Shown here: positions 1,942 through 20,813 of the stretch, piece by piece
Position numbering within the stretch: position 1 is the stretch's first letter
How the letters are laid out: each line of letters opens with the position of its first letter
Source of the DNA: a virus
IMG/VR virus record: IMGVR_UViG_3300048022_000142
Span: 1 to 20,813 of that record
Strand: one strand, 5' to 3'
DNA length: 20,813 nucleotides
Translations under genes and position numbers: made by a program
The notes under the pieces: generated by a model
Database searches by the model: none
Told to the model about the DNA's origin: nothing
The model's input: the letters and a program-made list of their open reading frames with translations, nothing else

Positions 1942-2139
1942 CTACTGATCTTGCTTCAAAACGCTCTTTTCTGCGTGATACGCCCCTTTTTGGTACATCT
2001 CAGTTACGTCTCGTACCCATGGCACCAGCCAATCATTGACCCGTAAACACTGGTCCCAGTTCACTGGCCTAGCGCATTGCACGACAACCGTGGTCCAAAA
2101 AGCACTGATATATGCCCACAACCAATAAAAATTACTCAT
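1942..2139 (-). CDS. Small membrane-anchored protein, unknown function
   Basis: The product is 65 residues. Residues 3-22 (FYWLWAYISAFWTTVVVQCA) form a strongly hydrophobic, Trp-rich segment that should be one membrane span or an uncleaved signal anchor. The remaining 40 residues are soluble and charged. The gene overlaps the stop of the peptidase gene by 8 bases (ATGAGTAA), so the two are translationally coupled and may act together at the membrane. I do not recognise the family. A lysis-accessory or holin-like role is possible from context only. Confidence 0.6.
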   Translation of the reverse strand: MSNFYWLWAYISAFWTTVVVQCARPVNWDQCLRVNDWLVPWVRDVTEMYQKGAYHAEKSVLKQDQ

Positions 2140-2881
2140 TTACCAAGATCACCCATCCCGTACGTGGTCCTTCCGCTTGCCACCTCTGATAAAAAGCAGC
2201 CTGCCTCACACGGACATTACGCCCCAAATGCGGATTACTATGCCCGCCTTTTTCCATCTCGGGATAACCCCTGGGATCTTGCATGATCCACTCTGGATCG
2301 TTGCTGTTTTTACCCGCGTAACCACTGATAACGCTCCAATGACCACAACCCATGCCATTGCACATAGGTGGTTCGCCTAAAAGCATGTTTCCAGCGTGTA
2401 GCCAGCCCACGAGAACTGGTCTGCCAGCTTCGATCTCTAATTCCACCATGTCAGAGTCACCGTCCTTACGGAACTCAGCTTCCAAACCAAGACTCCGCAA
2501 CGCTGCAAGCTGAGCTTCTACCGATGTGGTGTCGCCAAACTTCGAGCGGATAGCGTTGTATTCGTCATCGGTGCGCACCTTCTTGTAATACGCCGCCACC
2601 ATGGCAGCTGCTGAGCTGAAACACTCGCGGTATCCCGTTCCAGTCTTGTTGTCGAGCTGTTTGAAGTAAGGCATATAGACCTGCTGGTCATATCCACTCT
2701 CTTTCCACGCCTGAAACCAATCGGCTTCGTGCTCCTCCAGTAGTTCCGGCGGCATTGACTCCTCAAGTTGTTTAATTGCAGCCAGCTGATGGGGCGTGCC
2801 ACGAAAAAACTGGAAAAACGGCAGCAGGGCAAGACCCATAGCCATCAGCAGCAGGGTTAGCTGGATAATGCCGGATGCCAC
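2132..2881 (-). CDS. Membrane-anchored C39-like papain-fold cysteine peptidase
   Basis: The product is 249 residues, with GTG start 2881 directly abutting the upstream stop. Residues 5-26 are a hydrophobic membrane anchor. The rest fits the C39-like peptidase fold: Gln75 as a possible oxyanion-hole residue in YFKQLDN, catalytic Cys87 in YRECFSSAAAM, His181 in GCGHWSVISGY and Asp202 in MQDPRGY. Cys, His and Asp are therefore present in the order and spacing the fold requires. C39-type enzymes cleave peptides such as bacteriocin leaders, and related domains act as wall peptidases or maturation proteases. Its place among small membrane-protein genes suggests a lysis or envelope role, which is an inference. 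The N-terminal anchor makes it unlike a free endolysin. Confidence 0.8.
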   Translation of the reverse strand: MASGIIQLTLLLMAMGLALLPFFQFFRGTPHQLAAIKQLEESMPPELLEEHEADWFQAWKESGYDQQVYMPYFKQLDNKTGTGYRECFSSAAAMVAAYYKKVRTDDEYNAIRSKFGDTTSVEAQLAALRSLGLEAEFRKDGDSDMVELEIEAGRPVLVGWLHAGNMLLGEPPMCNGMGCGHWSVISGYAGKNSNDPEWIMQDPRGYPEMEKGGHSNPHLGRNVRVRQAAFYQRWQAEGPRTGWVILVNE

Positions 2882-7831: not shown

Positions 7832-10618
7832 TTAACGAGCAAGCCCGCCATTAGCTTGGAAGGGGTTTTCAGCGAAACAGGCATATATCACCGTATTGCC
7901 AACAGGTTGCGCAATTCTAATCTTAAAACCGTTTGACAAGAAATCTATGATGTCTAAAGAGGCTTCAGCGGCGTTGGTATCAGCAAGCAAATAGTTGTCC
8001 ATTACGTTGTAAGTATTTCTCTTAGAGTCAAACATTGCCCAGTTGCCGGCTGTATTTGAGTAGCGGTAAAGTATAAATGCGGGTCTGAAACCTGTATAAA
8101 CAAATGGAAAATTGGAAGCACCGCCTGCCGTGTACGAACCAAACGCGCTATAGCCTGCGACAGAAGTAAACGAGTAAGCCACCATTGGTTCGTCGGCCCC
8201 AATAATTAGCGACGAAGGATATGTAAAAACACTAGATGTTGGTGCAGTCGTAAACTCATTTGTTGCTGCCGCGCCAGTGTCATTTAGGTTAATGTATTTT
8301 TGGCCTATGGATTTGTGATATGAGTACCAGTTACTGCTTACGTCTCGGAACTTATGGATTACAAATTCAGGAGCAGCATTTAATCCGTGCCCATAGGTAA
8401 ACTGTGCGGACGGATTTGGCGTGTTAAAGGTAGCAATACTGAATCCAGCCGTTTGATTTGCTCTGACCTGTGAAGTTTGGCTGCCGTCAGTATTGCTGGC
8501 CGTTGATGATCCGGCGTCCCACGCCCAGGCTATTGATTCGCCAGAACTATAGTTAGCATTGTTGTTTTTGCCTGAAGTAAATCCATCAGAAGTAAAAGCC
8601 AAACTATTACTTAAATTAGCTTCAACACTTGTTTCATTTGGCATTAATGCTTTATTTGCACCTCTGACCTGATCCCATAGTTGATGCGCGTAAGCGTTTG
8701 TTCTTGATTTTGTCCATATCAAATCTGGAGAGAGATTAAATCCACTTACAGTTTGCGTTCCATTGTTTGCTGTAAAAGTCTTTGCATCAAACGCCGTCGA
8801 ACCATCGGCAATCGTCGGGGTCGGGAGCAGTGTGGTGCATAACGGGGAAAATCCACTTGGGGCGCTATACGCAAAGGCACGTTGGCCAAAGTTCCAAACT
8901 TGTTTGTCGTTTGTTGTGTAGAGCGTTCCACCGAAGTGGTAAACATCTGCGTCAAGATCTGAACCTGAATATGCAGTTCCTAAAGATGTGCCGTTTTTGT
9001 AAAAAGTAAGAGTTTTTGTCGCAGAGTCAAGGTCGAGAGCAATGCCAATAACATCACCAGCGCCATAAGTAACACTTCCATACGATGTGTTCGTAGAGTC
9101 GTGCCTCAAGTAACCCTCTGCCGCGTAACTCCAGCCGTTTGCATCATTGCCGATATACCCACCAGTTACAGAGCCTTGTTGGATCCCGATAAAATTATAC
9201 GCACCGACTTCATTTGTGCATTCAACGTACCACTTACCTGAACTGACTCCGATGGTAGAGACAGCGTTGTTATAGCCGCTTTGTCCAGTATCAGTGATCT
9301 CTAAATTGCCATTGGAAAAAACAGGGCTTGCAGTATTGTGTACCACCAACGGGTTGAGTGTCGCGTAATTCCCTGACACTTCTCCCCCGGCCCCAGAATC
9401 ATCTGACGAATCGCCGTTTGTTGGTACGTCACGCAGAACGTCAGCTTGTCCAACTAAATTTACAAGAGCAGGAAAACTGCCAGACATTTTTGAATTAGCA
9501 TCTGGTTGTGAAGAGGTTCTTGTATCACCAATTAAATATAAATCTTCAGTATTTGTGTAATCGTATGCTTGCGGGGTGCCAGTGGTATTTTCCCACTGAA
9601 ACGTATCAGCCTCTCCTACTCCGTGGCTTCCAGTGTTATACCACGAAGTGTCGCCGGAACTCCTTACATACACATAATACAGAGAGGGATATTCAGATCC
9701 CTCCGGGTGACAAAGTTCACCCACTACTCCACCATCGTTTGGCACCAAGTAAACAAATTCATCTGACGATAACGTAAATGCATCTTGACCTCGATCAGTC
9801 GCATTAGCAATAACGTCAGCCTTTGTGGTGTATAAAGTTGTAGAGGTGTACCATTTCGGTTTTGTACCACTGTAAACACCAGTTGAGAGGTTATTTACCG
9901 TAAAGTCATTGTCATTGCCGCTGGAATCATCGCCGATCCCGCTTTCATTGGCAAAGTCGAAAAGATGAAATCCGTTCGTACCAAATGTTCCGCTATAGGC
10001 TGCAGCTTGCCATACGCCGTTATCGTCAAACGCTCCAAATGACGTAGGGTCAAGTGCTTGGCCGTCGATAAAATAGACATCGGCTAAATATCCATCTAAA
10101 TAACGGCTGTATCCAGCTTCTTTGCCAATTAACTGTTCTGTGCTGTCATTTACTGATGATTGCAAGTTTTGCGAAAATGTTCCATCAAGAGTTTGTTCTA
10201 CTCCATTGACATAGAATCGAACTCTTTCGGCAGCTGTTGAGCTGCTGGTATTCCATACTAAGCAATAATGTGCCCACCCAGAAAAGTCACGAAAAACAGC
10301 ATTAGTGCTATGTCGTTCAATAGCAGCACCGTTTGGGGGGTCTGTAAAAATCTCCCAAGTTCCGCCTGACTCGTATCTGACGAAAAATCTATCATTGGCA
10401 TCGCCAGCACTAAACAGACACGGATATGTATTATTCATTTCGGACAGTTTTATCCAAGCCGCCCATGTCCAAGTCGTTAGGCTGCCAGCGGAACTATTTG
10501 TACGATTCAGATATGCCGAATCTGCTGAATTAAACCGAACGGACTTAATTGGTCCTGCAGCTGCAGCGTCAGCAGCCGCCGTGAAAAACAGCGGGCTTGC
10601 ACTTCCAGGAATACTCAT
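7832..10618 (-). CDS. Large tail fibre or tip protein with LamG-like and SPRY-like domains
   Basis: The product is 928 residues. Residues 25-215 form a LamG/concanavalin-like jellyroll (KSVRFNSADSAYLNRTNSSA at the start, WTWAAWIKLSEMNN, VRFYVNGVEQTLDG, GYLADVYFIDGQALDP), a fold that often binds sugars. Residues about 455-580 match a SPRY-like domain (VSSGKWYVEC, FIGIQQG, GDVIGIALDLDSATKTLTFY, KNGTSLGTAYSG). The C-terminal third has LIWTKSRTNAYAHQLWDQVR and SFTSVAGYSAFGSY motifs that I associate with phage fibre tips. Together these suggest adhesion to host glycan. The ATG overlaps the upstream stop by 4 bases. A hand-counted 60-base sample (8221-8280) is 45% GC, against about 52% in the neighbouring fibre. 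Confidence 0.8.
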   Translation of the reverse strand: MSIPGSASPLFFTAAADAAAAGPIKSVRFNSADSAYLNRTNSSAGSLTTWTWAAWIKLSEMNNTYPCLFSAGDANDRFFVRYESGGTWEIFTDPPNGAAIERHSTNAVFRDFSGWAHYCLVWNTSSSTAAERVRFYVNGVEQTLDGTFSQNLQSSVNDSTEQLIGKEAGYSRYLDGYLADVYFIDGQALDPTSFGAFDDNGVWQAAAYSGTFGTNGFHLFDFANESGIGDDSSGNDNDFTVNNLSTGVYSGTKPKWYTSTTLYTTKADVIANATDRGQDAFTLSSDEFVYLVPNDGGVVGELCHPEGSEYPSLYYVYVRSSGDTSWYNTGSHGVGEADTFQWENTTGTPQAYDYTNTEDLYLIGDTRTSSQPDANSKMSGSFPALVNLVGQADVLRDVPTNGDSSDDSGAGGEVSGNYATLNPLVVHNTASPVFSNGNLEITDTGQSGYNNAVSTIGVSSGKWYVECTNEVGAYNFIGIQQGSVTGGYIGNDANGWSYAAEGYLRHDSTNTSYGSVTYGAGDVIGIALDLDSATKTLTFYKNGTSLGTAYSGSDLDADVYHFGGTLYTTNDKQVWNFGQRAFAYSAPSGFSPLCTTLLPTPTIADGSTAFDAKTFTANNGTQTVSGFNLSPDLIWTKSRTNAYAHQLWDQVRGANKALMPNETSVEANLSNSLAFTSDGFTSGKNNNANYSSGESIAWAWDAGSSTASNTDGSQTSQVRANQTAGFSIATFNTPNPSAQFTYGHGLNAAPEFVIHKFRDVSSNWYSYHKSIGQKYINLNDTGAAATNEFTTAPTSSVFTYPSSLIIGADEPMVAYSFTSVAGYSAFGSYTAGGASNFPFVYTGFRPAFILYRYSNTAGNWAMFDSKRNTYNVMDNYLLADTNAAEASLDIIDFLSNGFKIRIAQPVGNTVIYACFAENPFQANGGLAR

Positions 10619-13935: not shown

Positions 13936-14369
13936 GACCCAATGGATGCAGTAGCAAGAGCACCAGTGCCCTGGAACGCAATCTCAGCTCTAACAATGTC
14001 GCCAGTTGCCGCTCCAATGCTCGCACTGGTGATATAAGCCGTCAGCTTGATGTCGTTGTTGTCCGTTCCATCAACCCAACGGAAGGTCAGCTCAACCGTG
14101 TCTGAACTACTGACACCAGCTGTGCCAGTCTTCATCAGCTTGTTCAGCAGGTCAGTGGTGTTGATCGTGTTGCTGTCATCCTTGTAATACAGCAACGTTG
14201 CACTGCCTGAATAGCCAGTCACACCAGGGCTATAACTTCTGACGCCATCACCCAACGTGGTGGTTTCAAGCGTTTCTAGGTTGCTGGACACAGAAAAATT
14301 GACGACCTTGGCAAGGGTCGCGCCAGCAAGCTGCATTACGCCATCTCTGCCGGTGTAAACCTTTGCCAT
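13932..14369 (-). CDS. Major tail tube protein-like
   Basis: The product is 145 residues. It starts MAKVYTGRDGVMQLAGATLA, followed by VVNFSVSSNLETLETTTLGD, a GYSGSATLLYYKDD strand pair and the ending IVRAEIAFQGTGALA. These features (N-terminal DG-x-L strand, the E-T-x-x-LGD loop and the GSATLLY hairpin) fit phage tail tube proteins, which stack as hexameric rings around the tape measure. Length is close to the minimal tube fold. It is odd that it lies downstream of the tip genes rather than before the tape measure. The start overlaps the upstream stop by one base (TGATG). Confidence 0.65.
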   Translation of the reverse strand: MAKVYTGRDGVMQLAGATLAKVVNFSVSSNLETLETTTLGDGVRSYSPGVTGYSGSATLLYYKDDSNTINTTDLLNKLMKTGTAGVSSSDTVELTFRWVDGTDNNDIKLTAYITSASIGAATGDIVRAEIAFQGTGALATASIGS

Positions 14370-14743
14370 CAGAGCACACCAATTAAATTGACTGTAACGC
14401 TACTGGTCCCCGGACGCACAGACGAGATCTGTGGTGGTGACTCGTATCGCCAGTTATTGCCAGTAGCCGCATCAATCGCTGCGGCGTCACCGCTCCAGCC
14501 AGCCCTGAACCCGGACGGCAGCGTGAAAACATCAAAGCCGCCCTTCACTTCGTCGTAGTGAGTGACGAAATCATCGGCTGCTGTGTCAGCGATATTGGCG
14601 TACTGCAGCTGTAGCTTCATGCCAGTTCGCTTGTCGCCGTACAGGATCCGGTACTCTTTGCCGGACTGGGACGAAAACGTTTTATACGGGTAGTCGCCAG
14701 CGTCAAAAGAACGGCCAGTAGGCTTATGCGCAGGAAATGCCAT
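14369..14743 (-). CDS. Minor tail protein, gpM-like
   Basis: The product is 124 residues. It has a strand (KEYRILYGDKRTGMKLQLQY), a helix (ANIADTAADDFVTHYDEVKG), a turn into FDVFTLPSG and a final strand set (WRYESPPQISSVRPGTSSVT). This order resembles the lambda minor tail protein M family, in which GDG-like strands precede a helix and a WKAF-type turn. In lambda, gpM belongs to the tip complex with gpL and gpK. The gene directly follows gpJ with a one-base overlap (TAATG), not between the tape measure and gpL as in lambda. Similarity is by pattern only. Confidence 0.55.
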   Translation of the reverse strand: MAFPAHKPTGRSFDAGDYPYKTFSSQSGKEYRILYGDKRTGMKLQLQYANIADTAADDFVTHYDEVKGGFDVFTLPSGFRAGWSGDAAAIDAATGNNWRYESPPQISSVRPGTSSVTVNLIGVL

Positions 14744-18708: not shown

Positions 18709-18980
18709 CCTCTGCTCCAAACGACTGCAAAGACAGGATCACCCTGATCTAGCAGCAACACGTCCCCATCGTAACCGGGCTGGTCAATTCGACTCCCCCA
18801 CTTCAATAAATCTCGCCCATACTGCCTAACACTCTGGTTATACCAGTCATCCTGAAACTCAGGCGTGGGCATATTAAGCCGCTCCAGAACCACATAAACC
18901 AGATGAATGCAGTCGATTGCTCCGTCAGCTCCAGTGCCATCAGCACCTAGGCGATACGGTCTGCCGATCAGATCAATCAC
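18615..18980 (-). CDS. NlpC/P60-like tail protein, gpK-type, possibly inactive
   Basis: The product is 121 residues with the NlpC/P60 pattern: GRPYRLGADG, catalytic Cys24 in AIDCIHLV, GDVLLLDQGDPV and a late histidine (His98) in YINRHLKAVAW. The usual second catalytic residue, a His in an S-H-V-G-like strand after GD, is replaced by Phe84 (DPVFAVV). Cys24 and His98 alone do not make the standard pair, so the wall hydrolase activity may be lost and the domain retained as a structural tip component. In lambda, gpK forms the tip with gpL and gpJ. The gene overlaps gpJ by 94 bases and shares ATGA with the upstream stop. Confidence 0.7.
   Translation of the reverse strand: MIDLIGRPYRLGADGTGADGAIDCIHLVYVVLERLNMPTPEFQDDWYNQSVRQYGRDLLKWGSRIDQPGYDGDVLLLDQGDPVFAVVWSRGCLYINRHLKAVAWCPIDGVSNSHCFRMKSG
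18715..18718 (-). promoter_or_regulatory. Shine-Dalgarno sequence deciding the gpJ start
   Basis: GGAG on the minus strand lies 6 bases before ATG 18708, within the gpK-like gene. It favours the ATG over the TTG at 18720 as start of the tip protein. Confidence 0.55.
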
Positions 18981-19822
18981 GCAACTCGAACAGCGCTGGT
19001 CAAAGGCAAGTGACCAACAAGCTGCCGCGTCAAACGCTTGCGTGGTACGTCCGCACCAACAGCGTCAAACACTGATGCCAGCTCTAGCGTCAACGCTGTA
19101 CTGTCCCATTTAGCACTGACAATCTGTCCGATGTACTGGTTGATCAAGGTGTAGCCGTCTTTGTCGTTTGGGTCGATCAACACGGTACGGACATTGGCTA
19201 AATACTCGTCCTGCACTGCAATCGTCGCAAACGGACGACTTAGCTCATTGTTCGGGAAAGCGATCGTTGCGGGCTGGTTATCACCTGACTTGGTGACGGT
19301 GACGCCTGAAAAAGCAAATGGCAGAAAACCAAACTCAACCCTAGCGCCAGTATCTTGATTGAAAAAAGGCGCGTTCTCACCAACCCAGTAATTCTGAAAC
19401 TTGTAATCACCAAGGGTTGTCGGTGAGCGCAGCGTCAAATAATGACCAAATGCAAGACCAGCATCACTAGCCTCAATGCCGACGGTCTTAGCAGCACCAC
19501 CCATCCCAGAATGGTTCGTGCAGTAATAGAAAAGCAACGGTGCCTTGTAGGCAATCGTAATTTCTGTGTAAGCGCCTGAGCTGCCAGGCGTTCCAGCAGT
19601 CGTTACACCTGCTGTGTACTCCGTTCCACCGCCATGGGTGCCGTCAGGAGTAGCGCTAAATCGAAGCGGGTGCCCCGAGTTGCTTGAGTGCTCCTGCGTA
19701 AATCGGTATGTCTTGCCTTCTGTCAGCTCAAGCGTTTCAGCATCAAGCGAACCACCGTCAAAGCGATAGCGGTTGCCGCCAGTGCTAGCGACAACGGTTA
19801 CGGCAAATGTTTGATCTGCCAT
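18977..19822 (-). CDS. gpL-like tail tip protein with N-terminal cupredoxin-like domain
   Basis: The product is 281 residues. Residues 1-115 look like a cupredoxin: strands (FAVTVVAS, YRFDGGS, TLELTEGKTYRFTQ), His51 in SGHPLRF, and Cys101, His104 and Met107 in FYYCTNHSGMGG, which are the four ligands of a type-1 copper site. Residues 115-281 resemble gpL-type or DUF1833-like tail proteins (LTLRSPTTLGDYKFQNYWVG, ATIAFPNNELSRPFATI, and a C-terminal RKRLTRQLVGHLPL). Position between the tape measure and the gpK-like gene fits gpL. Metal binding is not proven. Starts and stops overlap neighbours (TGATG and ATGA). Confidence 0.7.
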   Translation of the reverse strand: MADQTFAVTVVASTGGNRYRFDGGSLDAETLELTEGKTYRFTQEHSSNSGHPLRFSATPDGTHGGGTEYTAGVTTAGTPGSSGAYTEITIAYKAPLLFYYCTNHSGMGGAAKTVGIEASDAGLAFGHYLTLRSPTTLGDYKFQNYWVGENAPFFNQDTGARVEFGFLPFAFSGVTVTKSGDNQPATIAFPNNELSRPFATIAVQDEYLANVRTVLIDPNDKDGYTLINQYIGQIVSAKWDSTALTLELASVFDAVGADVPRKRLTRQLVGHLPLTSAVRVA

Positions 19823-20813
19823 CAGAGACCAATCCTCCGGCGCTGTGATGTGTTCTGCCTAAGAGTAGTCAAAGCACGCTGCTCGCCCTGTGTTGCACCC
19901 TGTGCTGCAGCCTGCTGCATTCCACGCTGGAACTGATCAGCCGTCACATAATCAACGCTGTTGATACGTTCCACGGTGTAGCGAACGTCGATTGGTGCGG
20001 CAACTGCTGTTCCGCCACCTTCGCCTGATGTTCCAGAGCCGCCCGTTTCAGGAATAACAGAACCACCACGAGCACCGCGAGAATAACGCGACATGCTTTC
20101 ACGCATCTTCGACTCAGGAATGACGTATTCAGGCTCACCGGCCTCTCCGACCAAAGCGTTGGTTGGACCTGAAACATAACCACCTTCTGCGAAGGGAGTA
20201 ACTGGCGTGTTAGCTCCAATGCCGGAATACTGCTCAACACCAGCAAGGTTTAATTCTTTTCCGCCACTGCCACCAGCAAGTCCAGCAAAGGCACGGGCAA
20301 TGCCAATCGCGATATAAGTCGCAATCATCTGTGCAGCTTGCTTCGCAAGTACATCAGCAAAGCTCATCAACATGTCCGCAAAGACTTTCTTTGCGCTTTC
20401 CGCTCCAGTGACCAGATTTCGCAGTCCGCTTACAATTGAATTGCCAAGCGCATTGCCGATATTCTGAGAAATTTGAACAGCTTGAGTTTCAAGGTCATTC
20501 AGACTTTCGACTGACTGCTTGATGAATTTATTAAGAGGGCTGTTTTCTGCAGAGATTTGCCGCATCAAGTCGCCAATTTGCGCAACTTGAGCGCCGGACA
20601 TTCCATCGTCCTTTAACTCTTGGAGCTTCTTCTCAATACGAAGCCGTTCACGCTCTGCTTCGCTGGTTGCTTGGCTTAAAGCAAGCTGATACTCAAGGTC
20701 CGCAACCGTATCATCAAATAATTCTTGACGCTTATGCTGCTCTTCTGTGATCTGACGCTCTATTTCACGGTGAGCAGCTAGCTTTTCAGTGGCCTTGGCG
20801 ATATTGATAGCTT
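19822..20813 (-). CDS. Tape measure protein, C-terminal part (partial)
   Basis: The frame is open to the right edge, giving 329 residues of C-terminus. The N-terminal 75 residues are a charged coiled coil (LAAHREIERQITEEQHKRQE, SEAERERLRIEKKLQELKDD). A helical region with a hydrophobic stretch follows (AQMIATYIAIGIARAFAGLA). Then comes the tape-measure signature EGGYVSGPTNALVGEAGEPE ending YVIP, a Gly-rich linker, a beta strand and a Gln/Arg helix (EQRALTTLRQNTSQRRRIG). It sets tail length and is ejected during infection. The real start lies outside the window. Confidence 0.85.
   Translation of the reverse strand, partial: AINIAKATEKLAAHREIERQITEEQHKRQELFDDTVADLEYQLALSQATSEAERERLRIEKKLQELKDDGMSGAQVAQIGDLMRQISAENSPLNKFIKQSVESLNDLETQAVQISQNIGNALGNSIVSGLRNLVTGAESAKKVFADMLMSFADVLAKQAAQMIATYIAIGIARAFAGLAGGSGGKELNLAGVEQYSGIGANTPVTPFAEGGYVSGPTNALVGEAGEPEYVIPESKMRESMSRYSRGARGGSVIPETGGSGTSGEGGGTAVAAPIDVRYTVERINSVDYVTADQFQRGMQQAAAQGATQGEQRALTTLRQNTSQRRRIGL

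Follow-up and report, generated by a model that had tools for sequence, protein, structure and literature searches.

The locus examined here raises the question of why the tail-tip protein of a marine phage should begin with a domain that looks like a blue copper protein, and what such a domain might do there. The window, that is, the whole 20,813-nucleotide stretch analysed (IMG/VR record IMGVR_UViG_3300048022_000142), comes from a contig that is itself a 20.8 kb fragment, and counts given for the window cover that stretch. Its tail genes run in the order tape-measure end, gpL-like ORF, NlpC/P60-like gene, hub protein and gpM-like protein (Table 1). The gpL-like ORF thus lies between the tape measure and the gpK and hub genes, which matches the position of gpL in lambda-like tails. 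The gene at the gpK position keeps its synteny in relatives, and its PHROG minor-tail match was weak. The closest isolates for the hub protein are the Synechococcus siphophages S-LBS1, S-CBS3 and S-CBS1, so the host of this phage is likely a picocyanobacterium, judged from this kinship. Twenty relatives (L001-L020) span the whole or most of the tail-tip ORF.

Table 1. Features of the tail-tip locus and copies of the domain elsewhere. Positions without a locus name refer to the window.
Feature	Location	Strand	Remark
Tail-tip protein ORF	18977..19822	minus	281 aa; stop codon 18977-18979
Predicted cupredoxin-like domain, residues 1-116	19475..19822	minus	AF2 model and VIA-align matches
gpL-like hub domain, residues 121-281	18980..19462	minus	Foldseek and VIA-align matches
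His51, first putative copper ligand	19670..19672	minus	kept in 210 of 213 distinct copies
Cys101, putative copper ligand, end of strand 97-101	19520..19522	minus	211 of 213 distinct copies
His104, putative copper ligand, loop after strand 97-101	19511..19513	minus	211 of 213 distinct copies
Met107, putative axial copper ligand	19502..19504	minus	210 of 213 distinct copies; Leu in the other three
Tape-measure protein end, upstream neighbour	19822..20811	minus	PHROG tape-measure matches, best E 1.1e-9
Downstream neighbour, gpK position, 121 aa	18615..18980	minus	NlpC/P60-like by reading
Tail hub protein, gpJ position, 1325 aa	14743..18720	minus	phrog_27845 tail protein, E 1.8e-33
gpM-like minor tail protein	14369..14743	minus	phrog_15525, E 1.6e-17
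Ligand-less copy L165	ORF at 3, residues 124-226		
Ligand-less copy L170	ORF at 1524, residues 160-262		
SAR86 ORF, 183 residues	L308 4779-5309		lipobox and one domain
SAR92 lipoprotein with domain	L305 4323-5300		
Marine Group II archaeal lipoprotein	L291 4230-5324		collagen-like repeats
Marine Group II archaeal lipoprotein	L297 4041-5303		collagen-like repeats
Cellular lipoprotein	L302 3747-5294		all ligands

For the fold of the N-terminal region, structures were predicted with AlphaFold2 from an alignment of contig loci only, with the phage-isolate rows left out. The full tail-tip protein was modelled as two domains, and residues 1-116 modelled alone gave a mean pLDDT of 93.8 and a pTM of 0.88. 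Among solved structures compared by VIA-align, the best match was the N-terminal cupredoxin domain of the nitrite reductase from Hyphomicrobium (Z 9.6, 2.7 A, 101 residues, 18% identity); two-domain laccases and further copper oxidases came next. Each of the 50 PDB chains among the VIA-align matches listed was a copper protein of cupredoxin fold, and amicyanin was present among the Foldseek matches. Immunoglobulin chains were absent from these 50 matches and some appeared lower down in the Foldseek rows; the assignment to the cupredoxins therefore follows from the better-ranked matches and the ligand set, not from the absence of immunoglobulin chains from the list. The cupredoxin fold, a Greek-key beta sandwich, that the earlier note had suspected for a domain of about 115 residues was thus confirmed as the predicted fold of residues 1-116. 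In the model, His51 lies immediately ahead of strand 53-56, Cys101 closes strand 97-101, and His104 and Met107 sit in the loop preceding strand 110-114, a modelled placement that is the cupredoxin arrangement.

This architecture is shared with amicyanin, pseudoazurin and plastocyanin (PF00127), which have the same fold, the same H...C-x2-H-x(n)-M order, and a Cys closing one strand with His and Met in the next loop. The window domain differs from these blue copper proteins in belonging to a virion protein that lacks a signal peptide such as periplasmic carriers have, in scoring under the Pfam cut-off, and in carrying a long insert between His51 and Cys101. In the Hyphomicrobium denitrificans nitrite reductase (2dv6, 6tfd and 6tfo; Z 9.3-9.6 over 101 residues) an extra cupredoxin is likewise fused at the N-terminus; however, identity is 18-19%, and that cupredoxin is joined to an enzyme whereas the one in the window is joined to a phage tail. 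As a separate observation, the fold was also matched in BFVD by beta-sandwich proteins of uncultured Pithovirus- and Marseillevirus-like giant viruses (A0A481Z6J5, A0A481Z7Q7, A0A481YY19 and A0A481YWX9), with TM scores of 0.64-0.74 by query length and 16-23% identity.

The four residues that the earlier note had picked out, His51, Cys101, His104 and Met107, were found in the 281-aa ORF at those positions and in cupredoxin order. Its remark that the Cys-to-Met spacing is shorter than in plastocyanin also held, as the motif reads C-x2-H-x2-M. Amicyanin has a loop of exactly this length, C-x2-H-x2-M, so that the short spacing is that of a known type-1 loop. Cys101 is the sole cysteine of the tail-tip protein. 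The pattern H-x(40-60)-C-x2-H-x2-M occurred in one of the 120 long reading frames of the window, compared with a mean of 0.02 for shuffled residues.

Conservation of these residues was then considered across homologues. All four were invariant in an alignment of 39 copies, seven of them from phage isolates, and the complete set was kept in 210 of 213 distinct viral copies, which bears out the ligand conservation that the earlier note had proposed to look for; since these copies were found by similarity, very divergent ligand-less relatives are under-sampled in this count. As a bias control, viral contigs were searched with the domain cut ahead of the Cys motif and with a peptide pattern upstream of all ligands, and copies were detected by a profile with its four ligand columns masked; all four ligands were present in 80 of the 82 complete copies so obtained. 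After weighting (about 47 effective sequences), each of the four ligand columns stood among the top ten of about 107 by conservation. The Cys, His and Met were kept while the letters between them varied, as in CTNH, CSVH, CQNH and CVNH, or HSGM, HGYM, HAAM and HPKM.

In one lineage (copies L165 and L170) the ligands were replaced together by N-S-N-L, with the remaining domain well kept and the reading frame intact; the third exception (L135) reads D-C-H-L. Among structural proteins of T4-like cyanophages, those of P-RSM4 (L253), S-SM1 (L258), MS29 (L255) and S-WAM1 (L257), called GC345 in P-RSM4 and S-SM1, have kept the shape of the domain, but Cys, His and Met have gone together in one block, with His51 still present in three of the four. 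Loss mostly as a set is expected from a shared metal and not from packing alone, and the persistence of ligand-less versions indicates that copper would be dispensable for some uses of the fold. It could be argued that the domain is a metal-free cupredoxin serving as a structural spacer or decoration, with the four residues kept for packing or through recent common descent; copper-free relatives of cupredoxins occur elsewhere, and the ligand-less copies in intact ORFs fit such a spacer. We consider this unlikely, because the ligands are, across about 47 effective sequences, as conserved as any of the most constrained columns, are lost together rather than singly, and stay constant as the letters between them vary. 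His51, Cys101, His104 and Met107 most likely form a type-1 copper site with a Cys-to-Met loop of amicyanin length, as far as sequence can tell.

Direct sequence kinship with known copper proteins was faint. The window domain reached E 0.18 and 12.7 bits against Pfam Copper-bind (PF00127), under the curated cut-off of 21.2 bits, and nine of the 39 family members matched this model at E<=1 (best E 0.066). Pfam contains no family for the domain, and NCBIfam gave no credible match. Matches to Pfam CBM_4_9, all below cut-off, were dismissed because the fold and the ligand pattern indicate otherwise. A PDB search with the single window sequence returned no match, and a profile of the main family alone retrieved mainly antibody chains, along with two copper proteins, an oxidase and a pseudoazurin, both at E about 1. 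Compared directly, the profile of the window family and phage plastocyanin aligned weakly (hhalign probability 2.5%).

A link was provided by large proteins of the cyanophages P-SSM2, ACG-2014h and MED4-213 (L266-L268), which carry an intermediate, more plastocyanin-like form of cupredoxin. The alignment of the window family (A3) matched that of the intermediate form (A7) with an hhalign probability of 95% and E 3e-8, the two having no sequence in common, and A7 in turn matched phage plastocyanin with a probability of 80% and E 1.4e-5. A comparison of alignments A2 and A6 (probability 99%) was discounted, as a P-GSP1 sequence was present in both, and the A3-A7 comparison was used instead. Searched against the PDB, the A6 profile, built from four sequences of which three are these intermediates, matched copper nitrite reductase, plastocyanin, amicyanin and rusticyanin; against Pfam it fell marginally below the cut-offs of Copper-bind and Cupredoxin_1. 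The bridging phage domains thus link the family to blue copper proteins, and on this kinship the window domain is a divergent cupredoxin rather than a look-alike motif. In MED4-213, both cupredoxin types were seen within one ORF of 1840 residues (L269). None of the chains in solved phage structures matched the carrier proteins of P-SCSP2 or P-GSP1.

The domain shares its copper-site residue types with PetE, the plastocyanin that cyanophages carry as an auxiliary metabolic gene. In contrast, PetE is encoded by a separate small gene, has the spacing C-x2-H-x4-M and is not part of a virion protein, whereas the window domain is fused and has C-x2-H-x2-M. A separate petE gene was found alongside the window-type domain in 7 of the 16 phage genomes searched.

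We further investigated how steadily the domain accompanies the tail-tip protein. It is absent from twelve relatives with 88-97% identity to the window in the gpL part, which begin directly at the gpL domain (MSDTALAFGHY...), and from ten further, more distant relatives. When presence or absence of the domain was mapped on a tree built from the gpL part, six changes were required, at least three of them forced by well-supported branches; the underlying alignment is short (155 columns), and several branches are weak. Grouping all carriers in one clade was rejected (p-AU 0.0002), and L021, which has no domain, clustered with two carriers, L003 and L004 (support 99/92). Related siphophages that share the hub and tube genes carry the domain inside the gpM-like protein instead, after residue 90-95 or so (L044, L071, L094, L095, L104 and others).

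Its carriers also include a gpJ protein (L097), SU10-type neck adaptors with the domain inside them (L134 and L152), an S74 tail fibre (L058), LamG/DUF7483 proteins (S-B68), and baseplate or fibre proteins of T4-like cyanophages, podoviruses and phages of Pelagibacter and Methylophilales. The set fetched comprised 22 carrier groups, a few of which are fragments; many are unrelated to each other, and the carriers cluster in marine phages that infect Synechococcus, Prochlorococcus, Pelagibacter and Methylophilales. The recognised parts of the viral carriers are virion proteins, and deposited relatives are annotated as tail fibre, virion structural protein, immunoglobulin domain-containing protein or hypothetical. 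The fusion at the tail tip is therefore no one-off, and the comparison of these proteins describes the domain as a mobile, dispensable module of many virion proteins. The window itself encodes a 928-residue protein with SPRY and DUF7483 regions (7832-10618, minus strand), and in a relative from S-B68 (L082) the cupredoxin domain is inserted among such modules.

The module is not confined to phages. In a scan of marine genome contigs with one typical copy of the domain as query, all ligands were present in 48 of 48 full copies, some lying in phage-like stretches and others clearly cellular. The latter include copies in cell-surface lipoproteins from SAR86, from SAR92 and from archaea of Marine Group II (Table 1), and a giant Bacteroidetes protein (L284) also carries the domain. 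Genes neighbouring the cellular copies were housekeeping-like by reading, and no copper genes were seen among them.

An optional module that moves among particle and cell surface proteins fits a role in adhesion or decoration like that of the immunoglobulin-like domains of phages. These promiscuous domains of tailed phages are likewise optional additions to tail, neck and fibre proteins, either fused or inserted; the window domain differs from them in its cupredoxin fold and its conserved set of metal-site residues. We therefore lean towards a mobile, dispensable cupredoxin on the virion surface, most likely with a one-copper type-1 site, that probably serves in adhesion or decoration. The module would sit on the outer face of the phage particle, ahead of the gpL-type tail-tip protein, and hold one copper ion through His51, Cys101, His104 and Met107; phages would swap it among tail-tip, neck-adaptor, tail-fibre and baseplate proteins as they do immunoglobulin-like domains, and the metal would act as a lock on the fold in a module that most likely adheres to other surfaces or decorates the virion. 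The predicted fold and its boundaries, the ligand conservation and concerted loss, the repeated presence and absence, and the many unrelated carriers were computed here; that the site is filled with copper, that the module is displayed and that it adheres is what we infer. Free copper is very low in the host cytoplasm, where virions are assembled, and this counts against the copper reading. A more far-reaching version, in which marine tailed phages of several families carry copper-loaded type-1 centres, the metal is active in host contact or entry (by adhesion, lure or redox chemistry) and virions form a pool of copper ligands in seawater, seems to us rather doubtful.

Two narrower uses of the metal can be set beside a role in adhesion or decoration. 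A copper-loaded domain might dock on a copper-uptake or other surface protein of the host as a kind of Trojan horse, for which we know of no receptor. The concentration of carriers in marine phages of the four host groups named above would suit such a lure, and an analogous hypothesis based on iron has been proposed for the tail fibres of marine phages (PMC11705849). The presence of the domain in neck adaptors, away from the receptor-binding end, and in cellular surface lipoproteins nevertheless makes this improbable. Even less credit can be given to a redox element, in which the copper centre would take part in electron exchange, or render oxidants harmless, on the surface of a photosynthetic host. 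Type-1 copper sites are electron-transfer sites and the best fold matches are redox enzymes, but the carrier proteins examined include no partner redox domain, and a lone copper centre on a particle would have no obvious donor or acceptor; we regard this use as very unlikely.

The second domain of the protein was analysed in the same way. From residue 121, to residue 252 or 270, it matched lambda gpL (8iyk_L) with Z 10.5 and 3.7 A over 129 residues (Foldseek E 2.1e-5), and the hub proteins of T5 (7zqp_b, Z 10.7), JBD30 (8rk3_O, Z 10.0) and RcGTA (6tba_7A, Z 9.3); the final 30 or so residues of the model are of low confidence. With this fold and its genome position after the tape measure, the gpL-like second domain described in the earlier note was confirmed. 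Residues 121-270 thus agree with lambda gpL, T5 pb3 and RcGTA gp13 in hub fold (Z 9.3-10.7) and in genome position. The match covers gpL residues 16-162 alone, and no cysteine follows residue 101. Because the match ends at about gpL residue 162, the window protein lacks the C-terminal domain in which gpL binds its Fe-S cluster; compared with lambda gpL, it also has an extra N-terminal cupredoxin.

These features could suggest that the cupredoxin stands in for the Fe-S cluster of gpL in the tail tip, as the earlier note had proposed. The gpL part was free of cysteine in all 18 relatives with the cupredoxin domain and in 20 of 22 without it, the other two having one cysteine each. As the cluster cysteines are absent with or without the domain, and the domain has been repeatedly gained or lost, there is no link between its presence and the missing cluster; gpL homologues without an Fe-S cluster have moreover been published (PMC13243795), and the replacement idea is therefore hardly credible.

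In the part of the literature that was searched, we found no account of a cupredoxin or blue-copper domain in phage virions, phage tails or cyanophages. By these comparisons, the window would thus present a known fold and a known type of site in a setting for which no earlier report was found. The metal sites known or proposed for phage tails are Fe-S clusters and histidine-held iron. The significance of the locus lies in a copper-protein domain that is shuffled through virion proteins of very abundant marine phages and is shared by surface lipoproteins of marine bacteria and archaea. If the domain holds copper, virion copper should be measurable in the cultured phages P-SSM2, S-TIM5, Melnitz and Baldr, and many carrier entries now named 'tail fibre' or 'hypothetical' would receive a testable function. 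The natural pairs with and without the domain, together with the natural ligand-less copies, are ready controls. Elsewhere in the window, judged by eye, the minus-strand ORF at 1401-1919 resembles a dCTP deaminase or dUTPase, and that at 2132-2881 (minus strand) a C39-type cysteine peptidase with an N-terminal membrane segment.
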